The position numbers and the translations under genes are program-made. A stretch of 46,400 bases of DNA from Anaerolineales bacterium (GTDB lineage: Bacteria > Chloroflexota > Anaerolineae > Anaerolineales > E44-bin32). The notes below the pieces were generated by a model. The model saw only the letters and a program-made list of their open reading frames with translations, was not told the DNA's origin and did not search any database. Positions 4,524-26,380 of this stretch are shown one piece after another (positions within the stretch are counted from its first letter, which is position 1; every line of letters begins with the position of its first letter). The stretch lies in the NCBI GenBank assembly GCA_037382465.1, contig JARRPX010000007.1, positions 1-46,400 of the forward strand, read 5' to 3'.

Positions 4524-4614
4524 ATTCGATCCTCCACGAGAAACGCCTCCATTCCCGCCCGGAAAAACGAGACGGAAATCAAGACGTTGGTCGAATTCTC
4601 TTCTCCCGGCAGTT

Positions 4615-7783: not shown

Positions 7784-7849
7784 TTTGCCTCTCCAAGCGA
7801 TGAACGGGTGAAATGTCCGGGACAACGCCCGGTCCGATAGATCACCCGA

Positions 7850-8410: not shown

Positions 8411-8455
8411 ATTTTCACGCCCTTTAAACTACGTACAATGGATTCCAGCGGAAAT

Positions 8456-8941: not shown

Positions 8942-8956
8942 TGCTCCCTCCCCAGG

Positions 8957-11011
8957 TCAAATACCCGCCGCAGCCATACGCGCTGCAGTCTTGCGCGGCA
9001 GGAATTCTTCATCCTTTTCCGGCCATGCGGCGATGGCGGTTCCCAGGATGAACACCACCGCTCCCAACCAAAGGAAATTCACCAATGGGTTGAGGTAAAC
9101 CTTGAACGTGGCGGCTTCGAGTCCAATCGACTCCCAGCCGACCAGCAGTACATACAGGTCTGCATCCATCATCGAACGCAGCCCCGGAATGGTCATCGAT
9201 TGTTGTGCGTCGGGGAAGAAATCCTGCCGCGGATACAGTTCGCCGACGAACTTCCCGTCCTGAAAAACGGAAACGACCGCGCGTGTGACCTGCTGCCTTC
9301 CGGGGACCTGGAACTGCGTCAGCGAATCGTAGCGCAGCGAATAGCGGTCCATGTTTAGGCTTTCCCCTACGGCCAACGTCGCTTGTGTCTCCGATTGGAA
9401 CATCTCGATGCCGATGATCCCCATCGCCATGAGCACGACTCCGAGGTGAATGACGTAACCGCCGTAGCGGCGCCGATTTCGGCGGAAGAGGTTCAGCAGA
9501 CTGCGCAAGATGTTTTCGCTGTGCCGCCGTTGCCTCGCCCGGGCAGCCCGCCAGAACTCGTACAAAGTAACGGCGACGACAAAGGCAAGCGACCAGGCGC
9601 CCGCATATGCAGCAAAATTGCGCATCCCGCGAACGGCCAATATTATGGGAACCACGAGCGATAAGGACAGCGGAACCCAGATCGATCGTCCCAGTGCCCT
9701 GGCAGAATGACGGCCGTATGCGGAAAGCGGCGCAATGCCCATCAAGATCAAGAGCGCGATCCACAGCGGCGCCGTGATGCGTTCGTACCACGGCGGCCCG
9801 ACGGTGACCTTCATTCCCGTGAACAGCTCGGAGGCGATGGGGAACAACACCCCCAGAAGGCAAACCGCGGCGATCACGATGAAGAGAAAATTATTCAGCA
9901 GAAATAAAACCTCACGTGAGAACCAGGATGGGATCTCGTTTTCCCCTCTGAGATCGTTCCAACGTGAGATCAACAGAGTCCCCGAACCGATGAACATTAT
10001 CCCGATGAAAACGAAAAACATCGGTCCGATCGCCGACTGCGCAAACGCATGAACCGACGAGAGCACACCGGAGCGGGTCAGGAAAGTGCCCAGGATGACC
10101 AGGATGTAGGTCAGCACGATCAAGATCACGTTCCACTGTTTGAACATACCGCGCTTCTCCTGCACCATGACCGAGTGAAGGAAAGCCGTTCCTGTAAGCC
10201 AGGGCATGAAAGCCGCAATTTCTACCGGATCCCAACCCCAGTAACCGCCCCAGCCAAGGACGTCGTACGCCCAGCGGGCGCCCAGCACCAGACCCAGGGA
10301 AAGGAAAAGCCAGGCGACAAGCGTCCAGCGGCGTGTGATGCGGATCCAACGATCGTCGCTGCGCCCCGTGATCAGCGCAGCAATGGCGAACGCATACGGA
10401 ATGACGAACGAGACGAAACCCAAGTACAGCATGGGAGGATGGATGATCATACCCGGATGCCGCAGCAGCGGGTTCAACCCGCGTCCATCGGCGGGGATCA
10501 GAGGCATCGTACCCGCGGGCTGCAGCATGGACGTCACCTGCTCACCGAGGGACGTCATCCATAATCGGCGAAACGGGTTTTCGAAGAACACGATCAGGGA
10601 GAGGAAGAACAGCAGCGTGACCATAGCCACGAACACGACCCAAGGCAGGAACTCCCGGTCCCGGTCCCATTTGCGCACAGAGACCGCAAAGGCGAACGCG
10701 GACATCAGCCAGGCCCAAAACAGCAGAGATCCCTCCTGCCCACCCCATAATGCCGTTATTTTGAGGTAGGTAGGCATGGAATTGCTCGTCACGGATGCCA
10801 CATATTGAATCTGGAACTGTCCATCGACGAGCAGCCAGACTAGCGCCACCGTCGAGAGGCTGAGCAGCGGCCAGGTAAGCAGCATGGCATGGCGAGCGCT
10901 CTCAATGAATCTCGGCTCATCACGCCGCGCACCATACACAGCTGCAACGGCACTGTAGAGCGCCGTGAATAATGCGATGATGAGAGAAATGTAGCCGATA
11001 TCCGCAATCAA
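8957..11011 (-). CDS. ccmF: Heme lyase CcmF (CcsA family)
   Basis: A roughly 684-residue integral membrane protein with about 15 helices, the core of the cytochrome c heme ligation complex. The heme-handling WWD motif GWGGYWGWDPVEIAAF is present, as are flanking periplasmic histidines (for example in RHPGMIIHPPML and LHSVMVQ). A C-terminal soluble loop with DADLYVLLVG precedes the last helix. A GTG at 11026 would add five residues, but GGAGGAG lies inside that stretch with ideal spacing to the TTG at 11011, so I take TTG as the start. The length is close to typical CcmF (about 650). Confidence 0.92.
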   Translation of the reverse strand: MIADIGYISLIIALFTALYSAVAAVYGARRDEPRFIESARHAMLLTWPLLSLSTVALVWLLVDGQFQIQYVASVTSNSMPTYLKITALWGGQEGSLLFWAWLMSAFAFAVSVRKWDRDREFLPWVVFVAMVTLLFFLSLIVFFENPFRRLWMTSLGEQVTSMLQPAGTMPLIPADGRGLNPLLRHPGMIIHPPMLYLGFVSFVIPYAFAIAALITGRSDDRWIRITRRWTLVAWLFLSLGLVLGARWAYDVLGWGGYWGWDPVEIAAFMPWLTGTAFLHSVMVQEKRGMFKQWNVILIVLTYILVILGTFLTRSGVLSSVHAFAQSAIGPMFFVFIGIMFIGSGTLLISRWNDLRGENEIPSWFSREVLFLLNNFLFIVIAAVCLLGVLFPIASELFTGMKVTVGPPWYERITAPLWIALLILMGIAPLSAYGRHSARALGRSIWVPLSLSLVVPIILAVRGMRNFAAYAGAWSLAFVVAVTLYEFWRAARARQRRHSENILRSLLNLFRRNRRRYGGYVIHLGVVLMAMGIIGIEMFQSETQATLAVGESLNMDRYSLRYDSLTQFQVPGRQQVTRAVVSVFQDGKFVGELYPRQDFFPDAQQSMTIPGLRSMMDADLYVLLVGWESIGLEAATFKVYLNPLVNFLWLGAVVFILGTAIAAWPEKDEEFLPRKTAARMAAAGI

Positions 11012-11130
11012 GGTACGCTCCTCCACTTGGCCCGCGCGCCTCGATCGTGCGCTGCGCGCTGCTTAACTGTCCCAGAAAATTGTATCGCCGTTTTCACCCG
11101 GGGATGCTTTCAAATTGCAGTGACCGGGAA

Positions 11131-11652
11131 TCAGCCTTCTCCGGCTTGCAGCGGCACCTCGTCCTCATAACGCGTCGGGCATTTCAGCAGCAATTCATCT
11201 GCGTAAAAAACACCGTCATCCCCGATGTGTCCGGTGACGATTGCCTGCGCCTCATCACGCAGTAAATCGGGTTTCGGGCCATAGTATTCCACCTGCAATC
11301 GGGTGGCCGTCGGATCGTTGACGGCCCGATAGAGGACTTCCGCAAGACCGCCGGCCTGCTCGATTTCATCCAAGTCCGCGGGACTGTTGACCAGTGTGAA
11401 CTGCAGCGTGAGTGTCTCAGCATCGTAGCGTATCGTATCTCCATCGACCGCGCCGGAGATCTTGAGATTGCGATCCTTTACTTCCTCGCCCTTCGTGATG
11501 AGTTCATCGATGGTGAGATAGTATTGCGCTGCGGCGCTGGTGGAAGCCACGATCAAATAGATCAACGCCGCCAGGATCATCAACCCACCGATGATGAATT
11601 TTCCCCGACTTACGGATGAATGTTCGACGTTGGTACGCTCGGATTGGGTCAT
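11131..11652 (-). CDS. ccmE: Heme chaperone CcmE, CxxxY type
   Basis: About 173 residues: an N-terminal membrane anchor (IIGGLMILAALIYLIVA) and a beta-barrel OB-fold domain with YYLTIDELI, KISGAVDGDTI and VEYYGPKPDLLRDEAQAIVTGHI, typical of CcmE. At the heme attachment site the usual HxxxY is replaced by KCPTRY (residues about 159-164), so the covalent heme ligand would be Cys. Such CxxxY CcmE proteins are known from some archaea and sulfate-reducing bacteria. The ATG at 11652 has TGGAGG upstream; the longer open frame upstream is not CcmE-like. It is first in the operon and diverges from the multiheme cluster. Confidence 0.92.
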   Translation of the reverse strand: MTQSERTNVEHSSVSRGKFIIGGLMILAALIYLIVASTSAAAQYYLTIDELITKGEEVKDRNLKISGAVDGDTIRYDAETLTLQFTLVNSPADLDEIEQAGGLAEVLYRAVNDPTATRLQVEYYGPKPDLLRDEAQAIVTGHIGDDGVFYADELLLKCPTRYEDEVPLQAGEG

Positions 11653-11941
11653 ATCGTTGGCCTCCAGTGGAACAGGCGATTTGGACGAATTCACTGACTT
11701 TCGGGGCGCTGCGTCTTCCTGCCCTCGAATTATCCGCGAAGTCGTCGCCGCATGACAATCTTCACACAAACAGATTAACGCAAAATGAACGCCGGGCGGG
11801 GAAATGAAACTCCCGAAATCCATTGTGAGATCATGGGAATTATAAGACAAATTGGGGCTATATTGACGGATGACAGACGTCATGCCCCGCACAGACCATT
11901 CGTCTATTTCGACTTGTGATATATTGCGCAAAGTGATGATG

Positions 11942-11957
11942 TGGGGTAAATTACCCA
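11942..11957. promoter_or_regulatory. Palindromic operator candidate TGGG-N8-CCCA, site 1
   Basis: The inner part is nearly a perfect dyad, GGGTAA-A-TTACCC. Read on the other strand it matches the site at 27000-27015 at 13 of 16 positions. It lies about 157 bases upstream of the nonaheme cytochrome start. A binding protein is not known; the nearby NarL-type regulator is a candidate by location only. Confidence 0.45.
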
Positions 11958-11965
11958 TAGATAGA

Positions 11966-11981
11966 TGGGGGTTTTGCCCCA
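11966..11981. promoter_or_regulatory. Palindromic operator candidate TGGG-N8-CCCA, site 2
   Basis: Part of a hairpin GATGGGG (11964-11970) / CCCCATC (11977-11983). Its centre is 24 bases from the centre of site 1, slightly over two helical turns. The central bases differ from site 1 and from the distal site at 27000. Confidence 0.4.
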
Positions 11982-12113
11982 TCACTCCCTTTGACACTTC
12001 TCTACCACAACCGTCGTGTCATTCCTGGGGATTCTATGTTGGCGAACGAAAAGCTGTTCTCATCACCATCGAACCCTTATCATTAATCTGGCGAATCAGC
12101 AGGAGTTGTATGC

Positions 12114-13238
12114 ATGTGGTTCAAGCGTCGATCTGTCATTTTAATCCTGGCCAGTATCCCGCTTCTCGCGATCGCGTTTAGCTTGACTTTTACCCCGACG
12201 CAAGCGACGGAGTCACCCACAAATCGTACGCCACAAATAGCCGACAACGATGCGTGTTTTGCATGTCACGCTACGCCGGGCCTGCAAATTACACTTCCGT
12301 CCGGGGAAGAATTGTATCTTACCGTCGACCGCGATACTTACAATGCGTCTGTCCACGGCCAGGGCGGTTACGCATGCATTCAATGCCACACGGATGTTTC
12401 CGAATACCCCCATCCGCAGATCGAAGCCGAAACTCGCAGGGATTTCACGCTCCAGCTCTACACGGTTTGCATCACCTGCCATCAAGACAAATACGCCGAA
12501 ACGCTGGACAGCGTTCATCAGCAGGCGCTCGCGGGCGGCAATCAAAACGCGGCCGTCTGCACGGATTGCCACGGCGCCCACGACACGCAGCCTCCTGGCG
12601 TGCCGCGCAGCGCCATACCAAAAACCTGTGATCGCTGCCATTCACAGATCTATGACCTTTATAAAAACAGCGTCCACGGCGCGGCGCTGATTGAAGACGG
12701 AAATCCGGACGTACCGACTTGTACGGATTGTCACGGCGTGCACGACGTGGAAGGCCCTTCTAACAGCCCGTTTCGCCTCTTCTCACCACAAATTTGCGCC
12801 AAATGTCACTCCGATCCGAAGATGATGGACAAATACGGCATCAGCACCAACGTGTTCAATACGTATGTGTCCGATTTCCACGGCACGACGGTCGTGCTGT
12901 TCGAAAAACTCGCCCCAGACCAGCAGACCAACAAGCCGGTTTGCATCGACTGCCACGGCGTACACGACATGCAGCAAGTCAATGCACCGGAAAGCTCCGT
13001 AATGAAGCAGAATCTGCTTGCCACGTGTCGGAAATGCCACCCCGACGCTTCCGCCAATTTCCCCAGCAGTTGGTTGAGTCATTACGTTCCCAGTCCGACC
13101 AGGGATCGCATGGTGTACTACGTCGGACTGTTCTACAAGATCCTCATTCCCACGGTCGTCGGCGGCATGTTGATTTTCGTAATCTCGGACGCTATTAATC
13201 GAATTCGAAGTCGCCGCAAGGAGCGCCGCAATGCCTGA
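12114..13238 (+). CDS. Membrane-anchored nonaheme cytochrome c
   Basis: A 374-residue protein with an N-terminal hydrophobic segment (signal or anchor, residues 7-27) and a C-terminal transmembrane helix (about residues 338-358) ending in a basic tail. Between them are nine CxxCH motifs, from CFACH at residue 48 to CRKCH at residue 305. The recurrent pattern CxDCHGxHD occurs three times, suggesting duplicated heme modules of the cytochrome c3/NapC type. It should be an exported electron carrier fixed to the membrane. The next gene, a b-type cytochrome, overlaps by 8 bases, so the two probably form a quinol-oxidising complex. ATG at 12114 has AGGAG upstream. The exact family is not recognised. 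Confidence 0.88.
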   Translation: MWFKRRSVILILASIPLLAIAFSLTFTPTQATESPTNRTPQIADNDACFACHATPGLQITLPSGEELYLTVDRDTYNASVHGQGGYACIQCHTDVSEYPHPQIEAETRRDFTLQLYTVCITCHQDKYAETLDSVHQQALAGGNQNAAVCTDCHGAHDTQPPGVPRSAIPKTCDRCHSQIYDLYKNSVHGAALIEDGNPDVPTCTDCHGVHDVEGPSNSPFRLFSPQICAKCHSDPKMMDKYGISTNVFNTYVSDFHGTTVVLFEKLAPDQQTNKPVCIDCHGVHDMQQVNAPESSVMKQNLLATCRKCHPDASANFPSSWLSHYVPSPTRDRMVYYVGLFYKILIPTVVGGMLIFVISDAINRIRSRRKERRNA

Positions 13239-14394
13239 GAAGCAAGCCAAACACTTGCGTTTCACCCTACCCATGCGAATCGAGCACTGGGTGCTGGTTG
13301 CGAGTTTCTCGACCCTGGCGCTGACGGGTTTGGTACAGAAATTCGCTGAGGGAATCATTGCTGACCGAATCATCGGCTTCCTCGGCGGGATCGAGACGGT
13401 ACGCCTGATCCACCATTTCGCCGCCATCGTCCTCATGCTTTTGGCGGTTTACCACATCGGCAGCGTCTCCTACAAGCTGTTCGTCCGTCGGGTACGACCC
13501 AGCATGCTGCCCACGCTCACTGACGTTCGCACTGCGATCCAGGCCTTTCGCTACAATCTCCGCCTGGGGAAAGTCAAAAAGCCACAACAGGGGCGGTTCA
13601 CGTTCGAGGAAAAAATCGAGTATTGGGCCGTGATATGGGGCACGATGGTGATGGCGATCACCGGATTCATGATGTGGAATCCGATCGCGACCACGCGCTT
13701 CCTGCCGGGAGAGGTCATTCCCGCGGCGAAAGCCGCACATGGTGGAGAAGCCCTGCTGGCCGTGCTGGCCATCATCGTTTGGCACTTGTATCACGTGCAT
13801 ATCCGCCAATTCAATAAAAGTATGTTCACCGGCCATCTCAGCGAAGATGAAATGCGCGAAGAGCACCCGCTCGAACTCGCCGATCGCAAGGCCGGCGTCG
13901 CCGAACGCCCCATCGATCCAACGGCTTTTGCACGTCGACGGCGAATTTTTGTACCGGTATATGCCCTTTTTGCGGCCGTCATGATTTTCGGCATCGTCGC
14001 CTTCGTAGCATTAGAAAAGACAGCCATCTCAACCTATCCCCCGGCCGAGAACGTCGTCGTGTATACCCCACTTACGCCAACTCCTTTGCCCACGCCACTG
14101 CCCACAGTACCCGTTCTGCCTTCGGCACCGTCCACTTGGGAGGGTTTTGCTGCAATCTTCCAAGATAAATGCGTCATGTGTCACTCGGGAGAATCGGCAA
14201 GGAATGGCCTCGATCTGACTTCGTATCAATCACTTTTAAAGGGTGGTGTTACCGGCCCAGCCCTCATCCTCGGAGATGCGGAAAACAGCCTTATCGTCAT
14301 TCTGCAATCCACCGGCAATCATCCCGGCCAGCTCAGTGGGGAGGAGTTGGCGGCCCTGCGGAAATGGATCGACGAAGGCGCGCCAGAGAACTGA
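13231..14394 (+). CDS. Cytochrome b561-like membrane subunit fused to C-terminal monoheme cytochrome c
   Basis: A 387-residue fusion. Residues about 15-190 form a four-helix diheme cytochrome b domain of the formate dehydrogenase gamma / b561 type, with histidines in MRIEHWVL, IHHFAAIV, AVYHIG, AAHGGEA and VWHLYHVH as likely heme ligands. A further helix (about 240-262) is followed by a Pro/Thr-rich linker (about 275-300). A C-terminal domain has one CVMCH motif (about residue 314) and ends with LRKWIDEGAPEN, typical of planctomycete-type (PSCyt) cytochrome c. It should pass electrons from menaquinol to the upstream nonaheme protein. ATG overlaps that gene by 8 bases with AAGGAG upstream. Confidence 0.88.
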   Translation: MPEKQAKHLRFTLPMRIEHWVLVASFSTLALTGLVQKFAEGIIADRIIGFLGGIETVRLIHHFAAIVLMLLAVYHIGSVSYKLFVRRVRPSMLPTLTDVRTAIQAFRYNLRLGKVKKPQQGRFTFEEKIEYWAVIWGTMVMAITGFMMWNPIATTRFLPGEVIPAAKAAHGGEALLAVLAIIVWHLYHVHIRQFNKSMFTGHLSEDEMREEHPLELADRKAGVAERPIDPTAFARRRRIFVPVYALFAAVMIFGIVAFVALEKTAISTYPPAENVVVYTPLTPTPLPTPLPTVPVLPSAPSTWEGFAAIFQDKCVMCHSGESARNGLDLTSYQSLLKGGVTGPALILGDAENSLIVILQSTGNHPGQLSGEELAALRKWIDEGAPEN

Positions 14395-14419
14395 GACCCC
14401 GCTGCGCCATGGAGAAACG

Positions 14420-16114
14420 ATGAGCATCCGATCACGACTGCACGATTTTTTCTTTCCGCCCCAACAAAGCAGCCGTTGGAGACGCATCCTGCCGTATGCT
14501 TCATTGGGCGTGCTGACCTTCATCGTGCTGCTCGGCTTCACCTACGCCTGGGATTACACCAATTCCCCCGAGTTTTGCGGCGAGGTGTGTCACACCATGC
14601 CGCCGGAGTTCTCCGCCTATCTCGCTTCCCCCCATGCGCGTGTCGACTGCGTGGAGTGCCACATCGGCCGCGGATTCATCACCACACGCATCACACGTAA
14701 GGCCGGCGACGTCAGGCACATCATTTCGCTGGCCTTCAAGACCTATGAATTCCCCATTCGCGCCGATGAAATGCGGCCCGCACGCGAAACCTGTGAGAAA
14801 TGCCATTACCCGGAGAAATTCTCGGACGACAGCTTGCGGGAAATCCGGCATTATCAGGATGATCCAAACAATACGGCGGTAAGCACCTATCTCACACTCA
14901 AAACGGGCGGCGGCACCAAGCGGGAAGGGCTCGGACGGGGCATACACTGGCACATCGAAAACGAGGTGTATTACCTGGCGGAGGATCTCGAGGAACAATC
15001 CATCCCCTACGTCCGCGTGGTTGAAGATGGTGAAATTGTGGACGAATTCGTCGAGCTGGGCTCCGGCGTCGATCCCGCATCCATCGACGAAACGGATCTC
15101 AAACGAATGGACTGCATCAACTGCCACAACCGCATCACCCATCTCATTCTGACGCCGGAAGATTCTCTGGATCAGTTGATGATGCGCGGCCTGGTCTCAC
15201 CGGCCATCCCGGAAATCCACCGCAAGGCTCTCGAAGTATTGAGCGCCACCTACGCATCCAAACAGGAAGCGCTGGACGGCATCGAAGCGCTGCAAAGTTG
15301 GTACGCCAGCAGCTATCCCGAGTTCGCAGAAGCGAATCGAGAAACGGTCGAAACGGCGGTTCGCGCCATTCGGGATTATTACGATCAATCAGTATTCCCC
15401 GAGCAGAAAGCCGACTGGAACACCCACTCCAACAACATCGGCCATCAGGATTCACCGGGATGTTTCCGCTGCCACGATGGTGAACACATCAACCGGGAAC
15501 AAACGGCGATCCGCCTGGAATGCAACCTCTGCCACTCCATCCCCGTCGTCGCCGGACCGGCGGATTTCACAGCCGAAATCGAAATCAGCCGCGGCCCGGA
15601 ACCCGAATCCCACCTGCATTCCAGTTGGATCAACTTGCATCACGATGCCTTCGACGATTCGTGTGCCGCCTGCCATACCACCGACGATCCGGGCGGCACC
15701 TCCAACACATCCTTCTGCTCCAACAGCGCCTGTCATGGAAACGTCTTTCAATATGCAGGGTTCGACGCGCCCGCTCTGCGCGAAATTCTGCGCGAGCAGT
15801 TCCCGGATGAGACAGAGCCCACCGAGATCACGCTCGAAGAGGGACCGCCCACGTATGATGGTGTCATCGGTCCGATACTCCAGGCGAACTGCAGCGCCTG
15901 CCACAGTGAGGGTGGTATGCGCGGTCTCAACCTGACGACCTACGCGACGGCGCTCGAAGGCAGTGAAAACGGTGCGGTCATCGTGCCTGGCGATCCACAG
16001 GCGAGTCGCATCCTGCAAATCCTGACCGCCGAACAACCCCATTTCGCACAGCTCACTGCGGAAGAACTGCAACTGTTGATCGAATGGATTGCGGACGGAG
16101 CACCGCAAAACTAA
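14420..16114 (+). CDS. NapC/NirT-like multiheme cytochrome c with C-terminal monoheme domain
   Basis: About 564 residues. An N-terminal helix (VLTFIVLLGFTYAW) is followed by a NapC/NirT-type region beginning with the atypical motif CGEVCH (CX3CH, residues 53-58) and SPHARVDCVECH. Further motifs are CEKCH, CINCH, CFRCH, CNLCH and CAACH, an atypical CSNSACH (CX4CH, residues 433-439) and CSACH (491) in a PSCyt-type C-terminal domain ending LIEWIADGAPQN. That gives up to nine hemes. The ATG at 14420 has GGAG upstream; an earlier in-frame ATG overlaps the previous gene and adds no signal. NapC relatives take electrons from menaquinol and pass them to periplasmic partners. Confidence 0.88.
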   Translation: MSIRSRLHDFFFPPQQSSRWRRILPYASLGVLTFIVLLGFTYAWDYTNSPEFCGEVCHTMPPEFSAYLASPHARVDCVECHIGRGFITTRITRKAGDVRHIISLAFKTYEFPIRADEMRPARETCEKCHYPEKFSDDSLREIRHYQDDPNNTAVSTYLTLKTGGGTKREGLGRGIHWHIENEVYYLAEDLEEQSIPYVRVVEDGEIVDEFVELGSGVDPASIDETDLKRMDCINCHNRITHLILTPEDSLDQLMMRGLVSPAIPEIHRKALEVLSATYASKQEALDGIEALQSWYASSYPEFAEANRETVETAVRAIRDYYDQSVFPEQKADWNTHSNNIGHQDSPGCFRCHDGEHINREQTAIRLECNLCHSIPVVAGPADFTAEIEISRGPEPESHLHSSWINLHHDAFDDSCAACHTTDDPGGTSNTSFCSNSACHGNVFQYAGFDAPALREILREQFPDETEPTEITLEEGPPTYDGVIGPILQANCSACHSEGGMRGLNLTTYATALEGSENGAVIVPGDPQASRILQILTAEQPHFAQLTAEELQLLIEWIADGAPQN

Positions 16115-16153
16115 ATTCAAACTCGAACCAAGACAGCAAACAGGACGAACACG

Positions 16154-16636
16154 ATGAGTAGCGATGAAGTTGTGATCGATCGAAGGAAATTCTTGAGCCT
16201 GGCCACCTGGGCCATCGGTGTGCTGATCAGCGCCGGAATGGGCATTCCGGCCATCGCTTTCATCATCGGTCCCGCACTGCAAAGCGAAGAAGAACAGGTG
16301 TGGATCCGGTTGGGTTCGGTTTCAAAGGTCGCCCTGGGTGTGCCGACCCTTTTCAAAACCACGATCGAGCGCAAGACCGGGTGGATCGTCAATGAAGAGG
16401 AACGATCCGTCTACGTTCTGACCGAAGACGGACGGGATTTCGTCGCAATGTCCAACGTTTGTACCCATCTGGGTTGCCGCGTACGCTGGATCGAAGATCG
16501 CGAGGAATTCTTCTGCCCGTGTCACAACGGCGTGTTCGACAAGCAGGGCAGCGTGGTGGACGGCCCACCTCCGCGTCCGCTCGACCGATATGAAGTCAAA
16601 GTAGAAGACGACCTGCTGTACATCCTGGGAGGTTGA
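16154..16636 (+). CDS. qcrA: Rieske iron-sulfur protein of cytochrome bc complex
   Basis: A 160-residue Rieske protein. The N-terminus has a twin-arginine-like DRRKFLSLATW followed by one helix (IGVLISAGMGIPAIAFIIG) that stays as membrane anchor. The C-terminal domain carries the 2Fe-2S ligands CTHLGC (around residue 103) and CPCHNG (around 124), and the proline loop GPPPRPLDRY. It takes one electron from menaquinol at the Qo site and hands it to a c-type heme. It is followed two bases later by cytochrome b6. Start ATG at 16154 follows AGGACGA. Confidence 0.94.
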   Translation: MSSDEVVIDRRKFLSLATWAIGVLISAGMGIPAIAFIIGPALQSEEEQVWIRLGSVSKVALGVPTLFKTTIERKTGWIVNEEERSVYVLTEDGRDFVAMSNVCTHLGCRVRWIEDREEFFCPCHNGVFDKQGSVVDGPPPRPLDRYEVKVEDDLLYILGG

Positions 16637-16637
16637 T

Positions 16638-17297
16638 ATGGCGGCGCGTATTGGTGATTGGCTCGATCAGCGCTTCGGCTGGCGCTCCGTTTGGCAGGCC
16701 GTTTTTCTCCGCAAGATACCGAAGGTGAATTGGTGGTACACGTTGGGCAGCGCCACGCTCTTCGTCGCCATCAACCAGGGGGTTACCGGCATCCTTTTGA
16801 CCACCTATTACGTCCCGACTCCGGACCACGCTTACGAAAGCATCCAATACATCACCACGCAAGTACCGGCGGGATGGCTCATCCGTGGTTTACATCACTG
16901 GGGAGCAAGCGCCATGGTGATGCTCACCGTGCTGCACATGCTGCGCGTGATCGTCGCCGGCGCATATAAATTCCCGCGCGAGATGACCTGGTTTACGGGG
17001 GTTTTGCTGTTGATCGTGGTGCTGGGATTTGGTTTCACGGGGTATCTCCTCCCGTGGGACCAGAAGGCGTATTGGGCCACGACCGTTGGAACCCGCATTG
17101 CTGGGGTCACGCCTTTCATCGGCGATTGGATACTCAAGATCATGCGCGGCGGGGAAGGCCTGTCCGCGGTGACTCTGGCGCGCTTCTTCGGAACACACGT
17201 CTGGATCTTGCCCCTGACGCTCATCCTTCTGCTCGGGACCCATCTCTACCTCATCGTTCGCATCGGTATCAGTTCCGTTCCCAAGAAGGGGGAATAG
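16638..17297 (+). CDS. qcrB: Cytochrome b6-type subunit of bc complex
   Basis: A 219-residue, four-helix cytochrome b N-terminal half. The axial histidines are visible as pairs in the second helix (LHHWGASAMVMLTVLHML) and the fourth (FFGTHVWILPLTLILLLGTHLYL), with a GxGFTGYLLPWDQKAYWATTVGT segment on the Qo side. Two b hemes are expected, plus possibly a Cys-attached one, which cannot be assigned here because no Cys is seen near the N-terminus. GGAGG precedes the ATG by five bases. Split into b6 plus subunit IV as in Firmicutes and cyanobacteria. Confidence 0.94.
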   Translation: MAARIGDWLDQRFGWRSVWQAVFLRKIPKVNWWYTLGSATLFVAINQGVTGILLTTYYVPTPDHAYESIQYITTQVPAGWLIRGLHHWGASAMVMLTVLHMLRVIVAGAYKFPREMTWFTGVLLLIVVLGFGFTGYLLPWDQKAYWATTVGTRIAGVTPFIGDWILKIMRGGEGLSAVTLARFFGTHVWILPLTLILLLGTHLYLIVRIGISSVPKKGE

Positions 17298-17300
17298 CCG

Positions 17301-19412
17301 ATGAACGAGCAAGAAAAACGGGCCTATCTGGAAAACTACGAACGGGAAAAGAAAAAAGGCGTCCCCTTCTTTCCGGACATCCTCTTCAAAGACGCCGTCG
17401 TATCCCTGCTGATCTTCATCGCGCTTGTCGGCCTGGCGTACTTCATCGGCGCCCCGCTGGAAGCACGCGCCAACCCGGCCGACAGCGGCTACACGCCGCG
17501 ACCGGAATGGTATTTCCTCTTCCTGTTTCAATTGCTGAAGTACTTCCCGGGTTCGTTGGAAGTGATCGGGGTCATCGTCATTCCCGCCTTGGTGATACTC
17601 ATCCTGTTCGCGCTACCGTATCTCGATCGAAGCGCGAAGCGCCACTACACCAGCAGACTCCCCATCGTCGGCGCGACGGTGCTGGTCTTTTTCGGCGTGA
17701 TCGCCCTTTCGATTCAAGCCTATCGAGAAACACCGCCGCCCACGGAAAGCGCGAAGGGAGATCCCATCGCCGCACGCTACACCGAAAACTGCGCGCCGTG
17801 CCACGGACCCGGAATTTCGGTTCAGACGGGAACGAATCTGCACGAGATCATCGCCCAGGGAAAACACGAAGGTATGCCGGCCTGGAATGGAGATCTATCC
17901 AGCGACGAGATCGACGCCCTGGTAGGTTTCATCCTCTCCCCCGTCGGTGATCAGCTTTTCCGGGCACAATGCGCCGCATGCCACGATGTCGAGGAATTGG
18001 TCGCCAGTGACCCGATCCAGCTGAAGGACGCCCTCGAAGAGGGACCCAACTTCAGCGAACACGCCGGAGTCGACGTTCCCACCTGGACAGATCTGCTGTC
18101 GCCCGAAGAACGCATCAGCCTGTTGAATTTCCTCATCGCACCGGACGGCCAGCGGCTGTTCGACACAAATTGTGCCACCTGCCACGGCCGCGCTATTGCC
18201 TTCTCCGGCAGCGAGACGGAATTGGAATCCATCATCCGCCAGGGAGGCCAGCACCTGGAAATGCCCCCATGGCGGCAGACGTTGAGCGAAGCCGAGCTGG
18301 AGACGTTGGCCGCTTACGTCGTCGACCCGGGTTCCAATCCGCGGGGAAGCGCACTCTTCGAAGCGCACTGTTCGACGTGTCACGGAGAACGTATCCCGGC
18401 CGCGGACAATGTCCAAACCGCATACGAAACGATTGCCGGCGGCGGGGCGCACGAAATCATGCCCGTTTGGGGAGACATACTCACACCCGAACAAATCGAC
18501 GCGCTGGTTGAATATACCTACAGCACGGCCGTCGGGCCGCCGTTGGAGTTGGGGCAGCAGCTCTTCGATCAGAATTGTGTCTCCTGCCACGGCGATTTTG
18601 GCGAAGGCGGCCCCAATCCAACTCGCCAGGGAGACGTGATCGCTCCCATAAGTTCTGCGGAGTATTTGAACACCCGCGATGACGCCACGCTGAGAGCGGT
18701 GATCGCACAGGGGCAGCCGAATTTCGGCATGGCGCCTTTCGGGATCGCCAACGGCGGTCCACTTGACGATGAAGATATCGATGCCATCGTCGCCTTCATC
18801 CGCAGCTGGGAAAGCAACCCTCCCGTCGAAATGCCGCCGGAGGTCGCCGTAAGCGAATTGCCGCTGAGCAGCGCCGAACTCTACCAAAGCGTTTGCGCCC
18901 AGTGTCACGGAACGAAGGGTGAAGGCCTGATTGGTCCTTCACTGCGCGATCCGAAATTCCAAGCCGCGAACAGCGACCAAGAAATCTTCGATACGATCAA
19001 CCTGGGCCACCCGGCAACTCCGATGATCGCCTGGGGTGAGGTGCTTACCTCCTCACAAATTCAACAATTGGTCCAATACATCCGTGGATTCGAAGGAGGT
19101 GCGCCGAGCGAGGCGGGGGTCGGCGGCGAGAGTCCCTCGTTCGCCAATGACGTCATGCCCATCCTCAACGAACATTGTGCTGCATGCCACGGCACTTTTG
19201 GCGGATGGGACGCCTCCAGCTACGACAGCGTAATGACCACGGGAGACAATGCTCCGGTGGTCATTCCGGAGGACATCGAAAACAGTCTGCTCGCACAAAA
19301 GATATCAGGGACCCAGTCCGAAGGCGCGAAGATGCCTCCCACCGGTCTGATGATGGATGAAGAGATCCAAATCATCCTGGACTGGATCGAAGCCGGTGCC
19401 CTCGATAATTAG
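17301..19412 (+). CDS. Cytochrome bc complex subunit IV fused to seven cytochrome c domains
   Basis: A 703-residue fusion. Residues 1-140 form the three-helix subunit IV part (helices about 33-50, 85-107, 121-139) with the Qo-site motif PEWYFLFLFQLLKYFPG. The rest is a chain of seven c-type domains with CAPCH (164), CAACH (224), CATCH (291), CSTCH (357), CVSCH (426), CAQCH (532) and CAACH (626). The first five lie 60-69 residues apart, like cbb3-type class I domains; the last is a PSCyt-type module ending ILDWIEAGALDN. In Firmicutes a subunit IV-like protein carries a single c domain, so seven is unusual. It should move electrons away from the Rieske protein along a heme wire. GGGGGA precedes the ATG. 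Confidence 0.92.
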   Translation: MNEQEKRAYLENYEREKKKGVPFFPDILFKDAVVSLLIFIALVGLAYFIGAPLEARANPADSGYTPRPEWYFLFLFQLLKYFPGSLEVIGVIVIPALVILILFALPYLDRSAKRHYTSRLPIVGATVLVFFGVIALSIQAYRETPPPTESAKGDPIAARYTENCAPCHGPGISVQTGTNLHEIIAQGKHEGMPAWNGDLSSDEIDALVGFILSPVGDQLFRAQCAACHDVEELVASDPIQLKDALEEGPNFSEHAGVDVPTWTDLLSPEERISLLNFLIAPDGQRLFDTNCATCHGRAIAFSGSETELESIIRQGGQHLEMPPWRQTLSEAELETLAAYVVDPGSNPRGSALFEAHCSTCHGERIPAADNVQTAYETIAGGGAHEIMPVWGDILTPEQIDALVEYTYSTAVGPPLELGQQLFDQNCVSCHGDFGEGGPNPTRQGDVIAPISSAEYLNTRDDATLRAVIAQGQPNFGMAPFGIANGGPLDDEDIDAIVAFIRSWESNPPVEMPPEVAVSELPLSSAELYQSVCAQCHGTKGEGLIGPSLRDPKFQAANSDQEIFDTINLGHPATPMIAWGEVLTSSQIQQLVQYIRGFEGGAPSEAGVGGESPSFANDVMPILNEHCAACHGTFGGWDASSYDSVMTTGDNAPVVIPEDIENSLLAQKISGTQSEGAKMPPTGLMMDEEIQIILDWIEAGALDN

Positions 19413-19425
19413 GGACGCTGATCCG

Positions 19426-20907
19426 TTGGGCGCCAAGATCTCAGCCCGTTTCGGTCCCTTGCGAAACAGCCTGCGCGCCCGTGTTGCGCTGGGCGTCGCA
19501 CTGCCTGTCTTTTTGGCGCTCCTGCTGCTATCGCTCACCTATTATTTGCGTGAGCGCCGGTCGATCGAAGAACAGATCCAATTCGCAGCCTTTCAAGTGG
19601 GCGAAGTGACCCTGGGAAGCCTGCAGCACGTCATGCTGGAAAACGACGCCCAGCTTATGTCAAATGTAATTGAGGATGTGGCAGGCATGACCAACATCGA
19701 ACGCGTACAGGTTCTGGACGCCGCGGGCCGTGTCGCCTCCGATAGTTCCAATCAGGACGTCGGCGTTGTCCGGCACGTGCAGGAAGCCGACTGTCAGGAA
19801 TGCCACGCACAAGCCCCGGATCCACGCCCGCGCACGATCCTGCTCTTGACCGCCAATGACACGCTGCGCATATCGGCGCCGATCGAGAACGAACCGGAAT
19901 GCGGTGCGTGTCACTCGAACGAAACGGGGCACCTGGGTGTTCTCCTGCTCGACGTGTCGCTGCGCGAGTCAAACTTGCTGATCCTCAAGGACCTGCGAAT
20001 CGAGTTGGCCATCGCCGCCATCAGCACGCTGCTCATCACTGCCGGCGTGTACCTTCTCATCCATCGACTCGTCGTCCGGCGCGTCGAGCATTTTCGCCAA
20101 CCACTTGCAGCCCTGGCGCGCGGCGAATTCGACCGCCGTCCTCCAAATCCGGCAAACCCCAAAGATGAGCTGGATGAACTATCCCTTGGTTTCAATCACA
20201 TGACGGATGAACTGCAGCGCCTCCAACGCGAACAGCAAACCAGGAGCGAACTTCGCTGGCAAGCCATCATCGAAGAGCGAGAGCGCATCGCCCGTGAGAT
20301 TCACGACGGCGTGGCGCAGCTCATGGGGTACGTCAACACGAAGACCGCCGCCGTCCGCCTATTAATCGAGAAGCAGGAGTTAACGCAAGCCGAAGAGCAG
20401 CTCAAGCAGCTATCGGACGCCTCGAGCGAAGCCTTCCTCGAAGTCCGCTCCGACATTCTCGGTTTGCGCAACAGTACAATGAAAGCCGGTGAGTTGTATA
20501 CGACGCTGAAGGAATTCACCGACAAGTTCAGTGAGTTGAGTGGGCTGACGATCGATCTTCACCTCCCGAACGGAAACTGCGAATACAACTTTCCCCCGGA
20601 GAGTGAACTGCATTTGCTGCGCATTACCCAGGAAGCGCTGACCAACGTATACAAACACGCAAAATGCGATCGATCCTGGGTGCAGCTCGATTGTGACTCT
20701 CGCCAATTGAAATTGACCGTCAGCGACGATGGCATCGGTTTCGACCCCGACAGCCCCCCCGCTGACCGTAAACCGCATTTCGGTCTGGCCACGATGCGCG
20801 AGCGTGCGGAGGCCATGGGCGCGGTCTTTAAAGTCGAGTCCCAAACAGGATTTGGAACGCAGATAAGCGTATGTCTGCCGTTGGAGGAGCAACCATGCGC
20901 ATCGTAG
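19426..20907 (+). CDS. NarX-type sensor histidine kinase with two CxxCH heme motifs
   Basis: About 493 residues. A first helix (VALGVALPVFLALLLLSLTYY) is followed by an extracytoplasmic sensor region containing CQECH (codons 19792-19806) and CGACH (19900-19914), the second in the context PIENEPECGACHS. Then come a second helix (near 19990-20070), a HAMP region, a HisKA_3 H-box (EREREIHDG-like, phospho-His codon near 20302) and an HATPase domain with DDGIGFDP. Two c-type hemes in the sensor suggest redox, NO or ligand sensing. The start is uncertain. A TTG at 19426, just after the previous stop with AGGGA upstream, is preferred over an ATG at 19357, which lies inside the previous gene. Confidence 0.88.
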   Translation: MGAKISARFGPLRNSLRARVALGVALPVFLALLLLSLTYYLRERRSIEEQIQFAAFQVGEVTLGSLQHVMLENDAQLMSNVIEDVAGMTNIERVQVLDAAGRVASDSSNQDVGVVRHVQEADCQECHAQAPDPRPRTILLLTANDTLRISAPIENEPECGACHSNETGHLGVLLLDVSLRESNLLILKDLRIELAIAAISTLLITAGVYLLIHRLVVRRVEHFRQPLAALARGEFDRRPPNPANPKDELDELSLGFNHMTDELQRLQREQQTRSELRWQAIIEERERIAREIHDGVAQLMGYVNTKTAAVRLLIEKQELTQAEEQLKQLSDASSEAFLEVRSDILGLRNSTMKAGELYTTLKEFTDKFSELSGLTIDLHLPNGNCEYNFPPESELHLLRITQEALTNVYKHAKCDRSWVQLDCDSRQLKLTVSDDGIGFDPDSPPADRKPHFGLATMRERAEAMGAVFKVESQTGFGTQISVCLPLEEQPCAS

Positions 20908-21557
20908 TTGCCGACGATCATTCCCTCTTCCGCGACGGCTTGGTCAGTTTACTTGAAGCCGCGGGATACGAAATCGTCGGTCAGGCTGGCGACGGACGGG
21001 CTGCCGTCGACATGGTTCTCGAGACACGCCCCGACATCGTCCTGCTCGATCTCGCAATGCCCATACTCGACGGCCACGAGGCGTTGAGACAAATCCATGC
21101 CGCCGCCCCGGAAGTGAAAATCGTCGTTCTGACCGTTTCCGATGAAGATGCGGACTTGCGGCGCGCCGTCCAGGCCGGTGCGCAAGGATACCTGTTGAAA
21201 AGCCTCAACGCAGATCAGTTCCTCGAACTGCTCGCCGGTTTACAGAAGGGTGAAGCGGCGATCACACGCAAAATGACCGCCCGGCTGATGGCACAGTGGG
21301 CCGACACCGCGGACGATCAAGAGCCTGCACCCGATCGGCTCACGGAGCGCGAACTTCAGTTGCTGCAGCTCGTCAGCCTGGGATTGTCCAACCGGGCAAT
21401 CGCGCAGAGACTCTCCATCAGTCTTAACACCGTAAAATATCACCTCAAGAACATCCTTCAGAAATTAGACGTTCAAAATCGTACCGAAGCCGTTGCCATC
21501 GCCATACGAGACGGCCTGTTGGACCAGAAAGGAGCGGACACGTCGGAGAGAAGTTGA
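20895..21557 (+). CDS. NarL/FixJ-family response regulator
   Basis: A 220-residue regulator: a receiver domain with the phosphorylatable Asp in IVLLDLAMP (about residue 53), Thr in VVLTVS and Lys in YLLKSL, and a LuxR-type helix-turn-helix (LTERELQLLQLVSLGLSNRAIAQ) at the C-terminus. It is the obvious partner of the upstream heme-sensor kinase, whose end it overlaps by 13 bases. The ATG at 20895 has GGAGGAG nearby; an earlier in-frame ATG lacks a site. It likely binds DNA as a dimer on short inverted repeats; the TGGG-N8-CCCA palindromes here are candidates. Confidence 0.93.
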   Translation: MRIVVADDHSLFRDGLVSLLEAAGYEIVGQAGDGRAAVDMVLETRPDIVLLDLAMPILDGHEALRQIHAAAPEVKIVVLTVSDEDADLRRAVQAGAQGYLLKSLNADQFLELLAGLQKGEAAITRKMTARLMAQWADTADDQEPAPDRLTERELQLLQLVSLGLSNRAIAQRLSISLNTVKYHLKNILQKLDVQNRTEAVAIAIRDGLLDQKGADTSERS

Positions 21558-21762
21558 GATTCGAAAGCCGCTCTTTATTGTCCGCCGCCTCCGCTACGGC
21601 AACCAGAAACCCGCTCCCGTACACCCACAGTCGTTCTACCATCTGCCTGGCCCACCCTTCCGGGTAGGCGCATGCGTGTCCCAACCCACCCTAAATAGAC
21701 CGCACGCCCAACCGCTCGGGTCTGGTCAGGATCACTCATCATCCTTTAATCTTAAGGGGTGG

Positions 21763-22146
21763 ATGCAATCCATCGAGGTGTGGATGGCAAAGCCGAAGGT
21801 CGTCGTTCTTTCGAGTCGCACCTTGTACACCGAAGGCGTACTCAGCCGGCTCAAGGAACATGAAGAACAAGTCGAACTGCGGGTGGTGGATGCCCGGGAA
21901 GAGGACGCCCTGGATCAAATCGTCTCGTACTCGCCTTGGGCCGTGATACTTGACCAAAGCGATGAAGAAGCCAGCCGCCATTGCTCGCTGTCGGAGTTGT
22001 TGGAAGAGCTACCTTCGTTGACGATCGTCCGTCTCGATATGCAGCGCCAGGGCTTTCAGGTCGTGACCAGCGAACAGCACACTGCGGAGGAAGTCGACGA
22101 TCTGCTCGAGGTGGTTGTTCGATCCAAATCTGACGATAGCACTTGA
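21763..22146 (+). CDS. Small receiver-like protein of unknown function
   Basis: About 127 residues (or 120 if it begins at the ATG at 21784). The fold reads as alternating beta strands and helices (KVVVLSSRTLYTEGVLSRL, VELRVVDAR, PWAVILDQSD, LTIVRLDMQ) like a response-regulator receiver. The strand-3 Asp (ILDQSD) is present, but the surrounding acidic pocket and the conserved Thr and Lys are not evident. It has no DNA-binding domain. It may be a degenerate receiver that works with the neighbouring kinase/regulator pair, which is a guess. The ATG at 21763 has AAGGGGTGG and the one at 21784 has GAGGTG, so either could be used. Confidence 0.65.
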   Translation: MQSIEVWMAKPKVVVLSSRTLYTEGVLSRLKEHEEQVELRVVDAREEDALDQIVSYSPWAVILDQSDEEASRHCSLSELLEELPSLTIVRLDMQRQGFQVVTSEQHTAEEVDDLLEVVVRSKSDDST

Positions 22147-22242
22147 ATGGAAGACGAGTAAAAATACGAAAGCTGTAATTCGAATCGAATGAAGCACGCA
22201 AACGGGTATGCTAGATGCCTAAATTCAAGCAGGAGGTCGTAT

Positions 22243-23244
22243 ATGAAGAAACGGATATTCTGGGGTGGTGTCGTCCTTCTGGCCCTCGTATTGGCTGGCT
22301 GCGCCGGTCCACAAGGTCCGGCCGGACCGACCGGTCCAGAAGGCCCTGAGGGACCTGCCGGACCTACCGGACCAGTACCCAAGGCTTCCGAACTCAGCTG
22401 CACCGGCTGCCACAACGACACGTCGCTGATCACCGGAAAGCACACAGCCTGGAGCGCATCCGCTCACGGTATGGGCGAAACATACGTACGCGCAGCAAGT
22501 TCCAGATGCGCAGGGTGCCACTCCGGCGGCACCTTCAGCACGATGATCGCCCAGGGCTTGAACGCAACGCAGATCGAAAGCGGAGATCCGAATCCGACGC
22601 GTACGGACTGCCGCACGTGTCACCAGATCCATACCACCTACACCACCGACGACTGGGCTTTGGAAACCAGCGACCCGGTGACTTTCAACGTCATTTCGGA
22701 CGCGACGTTCAACGGTGGGGCGGGCAACCTCTGCGCCAACTGCCACCAACCGCTCTCGGGGTATCCCGGAGCCGAAAACGGCATGGTCGAAGTCTCCAGC
22801 ACGCATTGGGGACCGATGAGCCCGCCGAGCACGATGCTTCTCGGCCTCGGTGGCGGGGGCGACGTATCCAACCTGCCCAGCCCTCACGCCAGCGTGGTAA
22901 AGGATACCTGCGTGACCTGCCACCTGGGTGACGCGGCCAGCCACACCTTCGAACCGGATGTGGCGACTTGTATAGTGTGCCACTCGGACGCCGAGGATTT
23001 CAACATCGCCAACGTGCAAAGTGACGTCCAGGCGATGATGGACGATCTAGAGAAAGCCCTGGTTTCCGCTGGTCTGCTCGATGCAGATGGCCATCCGGTG
23101 GTCGGAACGTACCCCGAAGACAAGGCTGCAGCCCTGTGGAACTACATCTACATCGAGGAAGATAGAAGCATGGGAGTGCACAACGCGGAGTACATCAAAG
23201 CGCTGCTCCAATTTTCTCTGGAAGCCATGGGAGTGAGCCAGTAA
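22243..23244 (+). CDS. Hexaheme cytochrome c lipoprotein with collagen-like stalk
   Basis: 333 residues. A lipoprotein signal peptide (LLALVLAGC, lipid Cys at residue 20) is followed directly by seven Gly-Pro-x type triplets (residues 22-44), a collagen-like stalk. Six CxxCH motifs follow: CTGCH (53), CAGCH, CRTCH, CANCH, CVTCH and CIVCH. The C-terminal region WNYIYIEEDRSMGVHNAEYIKALL is typical of periplasmic or surface multiheme cytochromes related to the nitrite reductase/hydroxylamine oxidoreductase group. It is a lipid-anchored electron carrier, possibly on the outer face. AGGAGG precedes the ATG at 22243. Enzyme activity, if any, is unknown. Confidence 0.88.
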   Translation: MKKRIFWGGVVLLALVLAGCAGPQGPAGPTGPEGPEGPAGPTGPVPKASELSCTGCHNDTSLITGKHTAWSASAHGMGETYVRAASSRCAGCHSGGTFSTMIAQGLNATQIESGDPNPTRTDCRTCHQIHTTYTTDDWALETSDPVTFNVISDATFNGGAGNLCANCHQPLSGYPGAENGMVEVSSTHWGPMSPPSTMLLGLGGGGDVSNLPSPHASVVKDTCVTCHLGDAASHTFEPDVATCIVCHSDAEDFNIANVQSDVQAMMDDLEKALVSAGLLDADGHPVVGTYPEDKAAALWNYIYIEEDRSMGVHNAEYIKALLQFSLEAMGVSQ

Positions 23245-23267
23245 TCCGGGTACACAAGTATGCGAAG

Positions 23268-23301
23268 AAAAAAAGAACTGCCGTATGGCAGTTCTTTTTT
23301 T
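23268..23301. terminator. Strong bidirectional terminator
   Basis: A perfect 15 bp stem (23268-23282 / 23287-23301) with the loop GTAT. The arms end in runs of seven A or T, so it works as an intrinsic terminator on both strands. It closes the multiheme cluster (plus) and the octaheme/NrfD operon (minus), which converge here. Confidence 0.93.
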
Positions 23302-23408
23302 CTGTGTATCTTTCCACCACTACACAATGGCTGTTCAGTCTTGAATGGAAAGTTGTCCGCCACGTCTCTTGTCCGAGTGGGCATATTGGCCGGCGGGGGA
23401 CTTACCCC

Positions 23409-24659
23409 TCAATCCGCTGAAGCCGCTGCGTAGGCTTTATCGATATTCATTTCATGCTCGGGTTCTTCGTGTTCCACGATGTTGAAATAGCGTACACCGA
23501 GTGTAATTGCCATCAAACCGTAGGCAACGACGCCGGCCCCGGTGAGGATTTCAATAAGCGAAGGAAAATAATGCGTGTACATGGTCGCAGTCGATTGCGG
23601 CAGGTAGGACATGACCACTACCTGACCGGCAAGCGTCACGTCCCAGCGGTATGCGACGAGGCCGATCACTACCATGCCCAACGCCAGCATCCGCAACGTC
23701 GGCTTGCTGCGTGTGCGGGTGTTGAGTAAAAGCACGGCAGGTATCAAGGCGCCCACGACGATTTCCCCAACCCAGAAATTCAGCGCCAAAGGACCGGAGG
23801 TCAGCACGGCCAATCCCTCGGTGCGGCCTGGTTGGTACGTGTAGGTCATGGAAAACGCATCCCAGAAGCGGAAGTACAGGTAGCCAACGAGAATCCAGCC
23901 AACAATCTGGGCAAGCCGTTCGAGCAAGTGATCGTCGACCCGCGCCTTGTTACTTAGGCGCGCCGTTAGCATGGAGATCAAAGTCGTGAACGAGATGCCG
24001 CCTGCGGCAGCCGAGATGATGAACAAAACCGACAACCCGGGGCGATACCAGATCGGGCGCGCTTTCAACACACCGAATGTGGCTCCCAGGGATGATTGAT
24101 GCAGCATCGAGAGTAGCAATCCCGCAACCGCGAGATACGGTGCAAAGCGGTGCAGCGACTCGAGCCGTCGTGCGAGGCGCGGCCAACGTTGCTGCATCCA
24201 GATTGCTTGTCCGACAATGGGTGCAGCCTCTACCGCCAGTACCGTCAGATACAGGCACACGCACATGGTAACTTCCCAGAGTACGGAGTGCGGATTCCAG
24301 AACACGAGCGCATGCCAGAATCGATCGGGCCGGCCGATATCCAGCAGCAGTGTCAACACCGCCATGCTGTAGCCTATCAAGCCGATGAACGTCGCTGTGC
24401 GCGCAACAGGCTGGAAACGTTTGAGACCCAGCAAGTAAACGGCGGCACAAAGCAGAAACGCTCCAGCGCTCAAGGCGATCGAAGACAGATCGATCGTGAT
24501 CCACAGACCCCAGGGTACCAGGTCGCTCAGGTTGGTGACGATCAATCCCTGGGTGAAGACGACAAAAGCCGCGATCACGCCCGCCACCATCAGCGAGGCA
24601 AGGATGAACAACCAGGTTTGAAACCGGGTGAACCTGATAGATTTTATCCTGGCCTTCAT
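23409..24659 (-). CDS. NrfD/HybB-type quinone-interacting membrane protein
   Basis: 416 residues with about ten transmembrane helices. It resembles HybB/NrfD polytopic membrane subunits that exchange electrons with (mena)quinol; a short acidic tail follows the last helix. Family features are the WGLWITIDLSSIALSAGAFLL segment (about residue 47), LLLDIGRPDRFWHALVFWNPHSVLWEVTMCV and ARPIWYRPGLSVLFIISA. The ATG at 24659 overlaps the ferredoxin stop (ATGA) and has AGGAGGTGA upstream; the open frame further upstream is not real coding. No heme or cluster ligands are evident, as expected for the family. Confidence 0.9.
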   Translation of the reverse strand: MKARIKSIRFTRFQTWLFILASLMVAGVIAAFVVFTQGLIVTNLSDLVPWGLWITIDLSSIALSAGAFLLCAAVYLLGLKRFQPVARTATFIGLIGYSMAVLTLLLDIGRPDRFWHALVFWNPHSVLWEVTMCVCLYLTVLAVEAAPIVGQAIWMQQRWPRLARRLESLHRFAPYLAVAGLLLSMLHQSSLGATFGVLKARPIWYRPGLSVLFIISAAAGGISFTTLISMLTARLSNKARVDDHLLERLAQIVGWILVGYLYFRFWDAFSMTYTYQPGRTEGLAVLTSGPLALNFWVGEIVVGALIPAVLLLNTRTRSKPTLRMLALGMVVIGLVAYRWDVTLAGQVVVMSYLPQSTATMYTHYFPSLIEILTGAGVVAYGLMAITLGVRYFNIVEHEEPEHEMNIDKAYAAASAD

Positions 24660-26354: not shown

Positions 26355-26380
26355 CGTGTACATCTCCTCGATTGAGGTTT

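Follow-up and report, generated by a model that had tools for sequence, protein, structure and literature searches.

A ten-gene Anaerolineales cytochrome locus gathering three predicted menaquinol oxidases and a diheme sensor kinase

Gene content and conservation of the locus

The draft genome of an Anaerolineales bacterium (GenBank assembly GCA_037382465.1; 3.73 Mb) includes the contig JARRPX010000007.1 (C7), whose entire 46,400 nucleotides were analysed and are referred to here as the window. Ten genes (A to J), all on the plus strand, occupy positions 12114-23244 and encode multiheme and b-type cytochromes, a Rieske protein, a sensor kinase with its regulator and a heme-bearing lipoprotein. 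The cluster is a real, conserved unit. Details of the features are presented in Table 1, where the starts of C, H and J were revised on the basis of homology and ribosome-site context.

An initial annotation, made from the sequence alone, had described nine genes on one strand. The single strand is confirmed while the count becomes ten, gene I between the regulator and the lipoprotein having been missed. The b-type cytochromes, Rieske protein, two-CxxCH sensor kinase and regulator that it named were all recovered by Pfam (b561, Rieske, PetB, PetD, HisKA_3/HAMP/heme sensor and NarL-type regulator). The end that it gave to the module has to be moved outwards, as J faces a convergent NrfD/iron-sulfur (FeS)/octaheme module (23409-26716), which relatives also have next to A-B-C.

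The genes carry 34 heme motifs of the CxxCH type (9 in A, 1 in B, 9 in C, 7 in F, 2 in G and 6 in J), in agreement with the earlier figure of about 34 once the two non-standard motifs, CX3CH and CX4CH, both in C, are included with the 32 standard ones. Residue shuffling leads to an expectation of <0.05 heme motifs per protein, and the open reading frames of the window outside 8.4-26.8 kb contain just 1 CxxCH in 16,804 amino acids. The pairs A-B, F-G and G-H overlap, and from B to F the other neighbours are 1-40 bases apart. GC content at third codon positions is mostly 0.60-0.75 and composition is uniform, so that a recent foreign origin is not indicated; a search of a plasmid collection gave no match.

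A-B-C forms a conserved core which is kept in the same order across Anaerolineae, with A and B near C in 30 of the 42 loci with full context, and the whole series A-B-C-D-E-F is intact in three loci (L076, L077 and L082). The search for the same gene order in other genomes, which had been proposed as a check, therefore came out positive. As the order is kept within Anaerolineae and in part across phyla, the view of the genes as unrelated neighbours was rejected. The nearest named relatives, judged by C, are Anaerolineae and other Chloroflexota metagenome-assembled genomes.

Table 1. Features of the window with their positions, strands and basis of assignment
Feature	Position	Strand	Basis
Cytochrome c maturation CcmC, CcmB, CcmA-like	3825-6133	-	PF01578, PF03379, PF00005
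Cytochrome c maturation CcmG, CcmH, CcmF, CcmE, divergent from A	7850-11997	-	named from open reading frame sequence only, without Pfam scan
A: membrane-anchored nonaheme cytochrome c; signal sequence, 9 CxxCH, C-terminal transmembrane (TM) helix	12114-13238	+	Pfam, motif count, model
B: FdnI-type cytochrome b561 with C-terminal PSCyt1 monoheme domain	13231-14394	+	PF01292, PF07635; TIGR01583 below cut-off
C: probable ImcH-family quinol dehydrogenase; one TM, CX3CH first heme, 9 heme motifs, C-terminal PSCyt1	14420-16114	+	PF03264, PDB match, alignment
D: Rieske iron-sulfur protein	16154-16636	+	PF00355
E: cytochrome b6-type subunit, PetB-like	16638-17297	+	PF00033 (E=2.6e-49)
F: PetD-like subunit (PEWY) fused to seven c-type hemes, the last in PSCyt1	17301-19412	+	PF00032, repeated PF13442, PF07635; 7 CxxCH
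G: HAMP/HisKA_3 sensor kinase, periplasmic diheme sensor domain (Mcp40H-20 type)	19357-20907	+	PF21563 above cut-off; PDB 3b47 weak
H: NarL-type response regulator	20895-21557	+	Pfam, NCBIfam; start re-placed
I: small conserved protein, accompanies G-H	21763-22146	+	no Pfam match; homologues beside G/H in L032/L132, L081, L089, L142, L224
J: lipoprotein, collagen-like GXY stalk, six CxxCH	22243-23244	+	stalk and hemes kept in 8 aligned sequences
Symmetrical 17-bp stem with A-run and T-run flanks; candidate bidirectional terminator between convergent operons (J and K-L-M-N)	23266-23303		
K: NrfD-family membrane subunit	23409-24668	-	PF03916 (E=2.7e-36)
L: ferredoxin-type 4Fe-4S subunit	24656-25459	-	PF13247 and others
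M: octaheme cytochrome c, 8 CxxCH	25425-26384	-	motif count, Pfam
N: small conserved protein, accompanies K-L-M	26381-26716	-	recurs in relatives; no Pfam match

A and B as a candidate split CbcL-type oxidoreductase

All of the 18 cysteines of A lie within CxxCH motifs and the protein has exactly 18 histidines. Each of the nine histidines outside the motifs is kept in at least 25 of 26 relatives, and from this conservation of distal ligands nine bis-histidine hemes are predicted. Nine bis-histidine hemes have been measured in the periplasmic domain of CbcL (PMC9129911). The structure model of A (predicted local distance difference test score, pLDDT, 82) finds its best Foldseek match in MtrA, although the match is weak (E=0.015). 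The model aligns to hydroxylamine oxidoreductases as well (Z ~9, high root-mean-square deviation), but an enzyme of that type is ruled against by the conserved distal ligands on all hemes.

The membrane domain of the pair is a b cytochrome of the HydC/FdnI type. Near homologues of C in Acidobacteriota, Ignavibacteria, Calditrichota, Zixibacteria and one deltaproteobacterium, A and B correspond to parts of one fused protein (9-19 hemes plus b561) with E values down to 1e-51 for the A part and 1e-39 for the B part. Because the two parts are fused beside C homologues in other phyla, A+B is best read as a split quinol oxidoreductase of the CbcL type, with a layout similar to that of CbcBA. Nine predicted bis-histidine c-hemes, membrane anchoring and an FdnI/b561-type b cytochrome relate it to CbcL/MtrH/MtoC and to CbcBA of Geobacter sulfurreducens (PMC9129911, PMC6295460, PMC7726332), and separate genes for b561 and a PF09699 multiheme protein are shared with CbcBA (Pfam; PMC7726332). 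In contrast to the single polypeptide of CbcL, MtrH and MtoC, A and B are two overlapping genes; A has nine hemes as compared to the seven of CbcA; and B carries an extra PSCyt1 heme. We therefore call A+B CbcL-like and assign it to neither CbcL nor CbcBA. A survey of 2018 listed no CbcL homologue from Chloroflexi (PMC6295460).

C, a probable ImcH-family protein

C is probably a member of the ImcH family with an extension. Its N-terminal region is NapC/NirT-like by PF03264, by TIGR03153 (NrfH; E=2e-17, below cut-off) and by a family-profile match to the NrfH structure 2j7a (PDB; E=7e-14). The first heme motif (CGEVCH) is of the CX3CH form that is typical of ImcH and is kept in most relatives, while the nine motifs in total (seven CxxCH, one CX3CH and one CX4CH) lie within the ImcH range of 6-10 (PMC6295460). 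C differs from the family in its CX4CH heme, whose cysteines and histidine are invariant in 17 of 17 relatives, in its C-terminal PSCyt1 domain and in its number of TM segments, which is taken up in the Discussion. Homologues of C in Acidobacteriota, Ignavibacteria and Calditrichota are found at 35-41%.

The Rieske/cytochrome b complex with seven c-type hemes

The D-E-F sequences contain CTHLGC and CPCH, which form the Rieske cluster motif, as well as PEWY. The complex resembles the bc/b6f-type complexes of Anaerolineae in its Rieske protein, its PetB, its PetD with PEWY and the fusion of c-type heme to PetD. However, seven c-hemes are fused to this PetD, whereas PetD subunits of the nearest lineages in the class typically carry two, as does the paralogue on contig C94 of the same genome. 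In a tree of PetB and the PetD N-terminus, eleven multiheme forms fall into one clade (support 100/99), separate from the ordinary complexes and with the diheme paralogue of C94 outside; nine of the eleven have seven motifs and the other two, which are cut by contig ends, have five and six.

The heptaheme set is biased because most of its members were met through nearness to C. A wider search of 396 genomes of the class found the heptaheme form in four, of which two stand beside C, one (L230) is without ImcH nearby and one lies on a contig too short to show its neighbours. In L230 (6464-12829) a Tll0287-type heme kinase, Rieske protein, PetB, heptaheme PetD and NarL-type regulator stand in a row, that is, the same complex with another heme sensor.

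The PSCyt1 domain

Throughout the genome, Pfam identifies PSCyt1 at four places only. Three are the C-terminal ends of B, C and F and the fourth is that of the ordinary bc complex encoded on C94; all four carriers are predicted quinol-oxidising membrane cytochromes. The tails of B and C are 40% identical, and local alignment scores among the B, C and F tails are 101-160 as compared to ~26 for shuffles. When the two tails were compared within each locus of the relatives, B and C resembled each other (score at least 120) in 26 of 35 loci, and in four of these 26 neither tail is PSCyt1. The restriction of the domain to these cytochromes suggests a shared exit to one acceptor; alternatively, the tails may have spread by plain duplication between neighbouring genes and have no function in common. 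None of the openly licensed papers returned by a search for PSCyt1 in connection with quinol oxidases or ImcH mentions the domain.

The diheme sensor kinase and its regulator

G begins with a periplasmic sensor of the GSU0582 type with two CxxCH motifs (PDB 3b47, E=0.004), followed by HAMP and HisKA_3. Both motifs are invariant in five aligned kinases with identity down to 27%. GSU0591, one of the Geobacter proteins cited below, is presumably the same as CbcD. Diheme variants of the sensor have been described in Gsu0591, Gsu0599 and Adeh (Anaeromyxobacter) proteins (PMC3831638), and GSU0591 is listed among cytochromes c (PMC7894505).

Diheme kinases adjoin parts of the cluster in five loci (L079, L132, L134, L142 and L224) and not in L225, where the contig is short. 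The control by heme-based sensing that had been proposed is supported by this recurrent linkage, but the kinase is not a fixed part of the cluster, since heme kinases occur in few of the 83 loci and close homologues of G in 4 of 120 genomes of the class.

Lipoprotein J and large cytochromes

The glycine-proline-rich, collagen-like stalk of J and the six hemes that follow it are kept in all 8 aligned sequences, as are five distal histidines. J may lie towards the surface of the envelope. In many relatives, larger cytochromes with 10, 22, 30 or 34 motifs adjoin A-B-C; in L128 (1-8828) and L126 (7462-9984), very large ones (34 motifs in 1248 amino acids and 30 in 841) lie directly beside homologues of A or C. 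No beta-barrel partner of an Mtr/Pcc conduit is present among the window genes examined, a genome-wide search for one not having been made; a published study of Anaerolineales genomes found no porin-cytochrome conduit (PMC7399161).

Flanking modules and the rest of the genome

Cytochrome c maturation (ccm) genes (3825-11997) diverge from A, and homologues of them are near C in 15 of the 42 full-context loci. The block also encodes a 451-aa protein (6030-7385, minus strand) with no NCBIfam match and a sub-threshold Pfam match only. Further along the window, a region on the minus strand (35901-40285) encodes a 329-aa unannotated membrane protein (35901-36890) and a second, divergent PetB-like cytochrome b (36883-37488), near which lie a NarL-type regulator (38164-38970) and a HisKA_3 kinase (38786-40285). 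Two further cytochrome b genes are located on contigs C94 and C125.

The genome has another NrfD/FeS/octaheme module on contig C64 (L181), where an 11-heme cytochrome is encoded next to it, and contig C14 (L182:6025-7512) encodes a 495-aa protein with 18 heme motifs and no NCBIfam match, possibly a further surface or periplasmic cytochrome. The NrfH-like pentaheme protein encoded on contig C46 (L074:10082-10741) has no adjacent NrfA, nor did one turn up elsewhere in the genome. Genome scans did not find NarG, or NrfA above cut-off; as the draft is ~95% complete, such absences are tentative. Nitrite ammonification was rejected on the missing NrfA, despite the NrfH-like protein. Nitrate reductase and alternative complex III were likewise rejected, as the molybdopterin hits, three in number, are explained otherwise with the exception of C65: the hit on C82 is a NuoG-containing frame within complex I genes and that on C9 belongs to a probable operon of the polysulfide/DMSO-reductase type with FeS and NrfD-like partners. 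In the molybdopterin oxidoreductase frame on C65 (8366-9652) a single TGA occurs in frame, and the product may be a selenocysteine formate dehydrogenase. That no terminal enzyme lies in the window, as noted at the outset, is borne out, yet a cbb3-type oxidase is encoded on contig C9.

Discussion

The sequence shows directly which modules are present, that gene order and heme ligands are conserved, that the heptaheme complexes form a clade and that PSCyt1 is restricted in this genome, and these features point to a locus that probably serves as a multi-entry menaquinol oxidation system exporting electrons, i.e. extracellular electron transfer. Three inner-membrane quinol oxidases, probably co-transcribed, would be A+B of the split CbcL/CbcBA type, C of the ImcH-type NapC family and D-E-F, a Rieske/b complex with a seven-heme tail. 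Each would take electrons from menaquinol on the outer side of the membrane and pass them along its c-hemes to the terminal PSCyt1 of B, C or F, from which a common acceptor, probably the stalked hexaheme J together with other multiheme cytochromes, would carry them to an extracellular acceptor. With its two c-hemes, G-H would respond to redox conditions or a ligand outside the membrane and set expression, and K-L-M may be a further quinone-linked module. What we infer in this scheme is quinol oxidation and outward flow, the role of J as the carrier that follows, the signal to which G-H responds and an acceptor outside the cell. Menaquinol oxidation feeding a multiheme relay, as in the initial annotation, is well supported by the modules and by the gene order kept in relatives. 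Its periplasmic or surface heme wires are supported as a relay, with the surface location and the direction of flow left conditional. Its statement that the combination cannot be named was too strong, because counterparts of all the modules have been described in Geobacter (PMC6295460, PMC7894505, PMC7726332).

The locus is best read as resembling the CbcL/CbcBA, ImcH and Cbc complexes of Geobacter, but gathered in one place. Cbc5 (CbcA-E) joins CbcA/CbcB with CbcD, which has a HAMP domain and two sites for heme (PMC7894505), and Cbc3/Cbc4 combine FeS and multiheme subunits, as K-L-M does. The present locus differs from these complexes in uniting all of its modules at a single site and in having, as its diheme sensor, an entire histidine kinase paired with a regulator. 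Three points are new here: the gathering of the modules, the single clade of heptaheme bc complexes and the finding that, across the genome, the PSCyt1 exit domain is confined to predicted quinol-oxidising cytochromes. A more far-reaching proposal is that three menaquinol oxidases of different energy yield are stacked in one sensor-controlled Chloroflexota locus. One of them would be a Q-cycle complex that pumps protons and whose covalently attached wire of seven hemes serves extracellular transfer exclusively. All three would converge on one acceptor via an exchangeable exit-heme domain, which is PSCyt1 in this locus and a different heme tail elsewhere, and neighbouring oxidases would swap this domain together. 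We regard this full version as tentative and rather doubtful.

Several observations weigh against electron export through Geobacter-like modules. C has one hydrophobic segment instead of the three N-terminal TM helices of ImcH; in the published survey all but two homologues have three (PMC6295460), but the single Chloroflexi member, from Anaerolinea thermophila, likewise has one, and three helices are therefore not a strict criterion. A scan of genome contigs with C returned no Geobacter locus, so that the likeness to Geobacter ImcH, CbcL and CbcBA rests on published descriptions. A strict tie of the heptaheme bc complex to ImcH is too strong, as the L230 complex has no ImcH-like neighbour. 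The model of J is poor (pLDDT 47), which bears also on the idea of an OmcS-like nanowire. Finally, electrons need not leave the cell, because the genome encodes a cbb3-type oxidase.

That oxidase could also be the sink if electrons flowed inwards, from reduced minerals, a syntrophic partner or a cathode along the heme relay to menaquinone and on to oxygen or another acceptor. CbcL/MtrH/MtoC relatives are known in Fe(III) reducers and Fe(II) oxidisers alike (PMC6295460), and the Chloroflexota isolate Ardenticatena maritima performs both anodic and cathodic transfer (PMC5808234). The sequence itself fixes no direction, but Fe(III) reducers are the only organisms from which ImcH homologues are known so far (PMC6295460), and the normal operation of a Rieske/b complex is downhill from quinol; we consider reverse flow unlikely. 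An internal periplasmic hub, in which D-E-F and the other oxidases feed soluble cytochromes for cbb3 or a periplasmic reductase with no electron export, would fit the oxidase and the c domains of F, which score best against CcoP-type and class I cytochromes. Such a hub seems quite improbable given that C94 encodes another bc complex, an ordinary diheme one that groups with the forms usual in Anaerolineae, that proteins of the ImcH and CbcL types work in extracellular transfer in the cases tested and that J carries a conserved collagen-like stalk. The adjoining NrfD/FeS/octaheme module, the NarL-type regulation and the alignment of A to hydroxylamine oxidoreductases could suggest respiration of a soluble periplasmic nitrogen or sulfur compound by an unrecognised multiheme reductase, but the conserved distal histidines leave no open catalytic heme in A, its best Foldseek match, MtrA, is a wire, and NrfA and NarG were not found in the genome scans, making this possibility very remote.

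Anaerolineae have been described as lacking an outer membrane, and porin-cytochrome conduits were not found in their genomes (PMC7399161). The locus described here is a concrete, conserved candidate for an outward electron route. If the exit domain is indeed shared, a single partner protein is expected to be reduced by each of the three oxidases. The heptaheme bc complex, should it deliver electrons to extracellular acceptors, could allow energy to be conserved through a Q-cycle during extracellular respiration.

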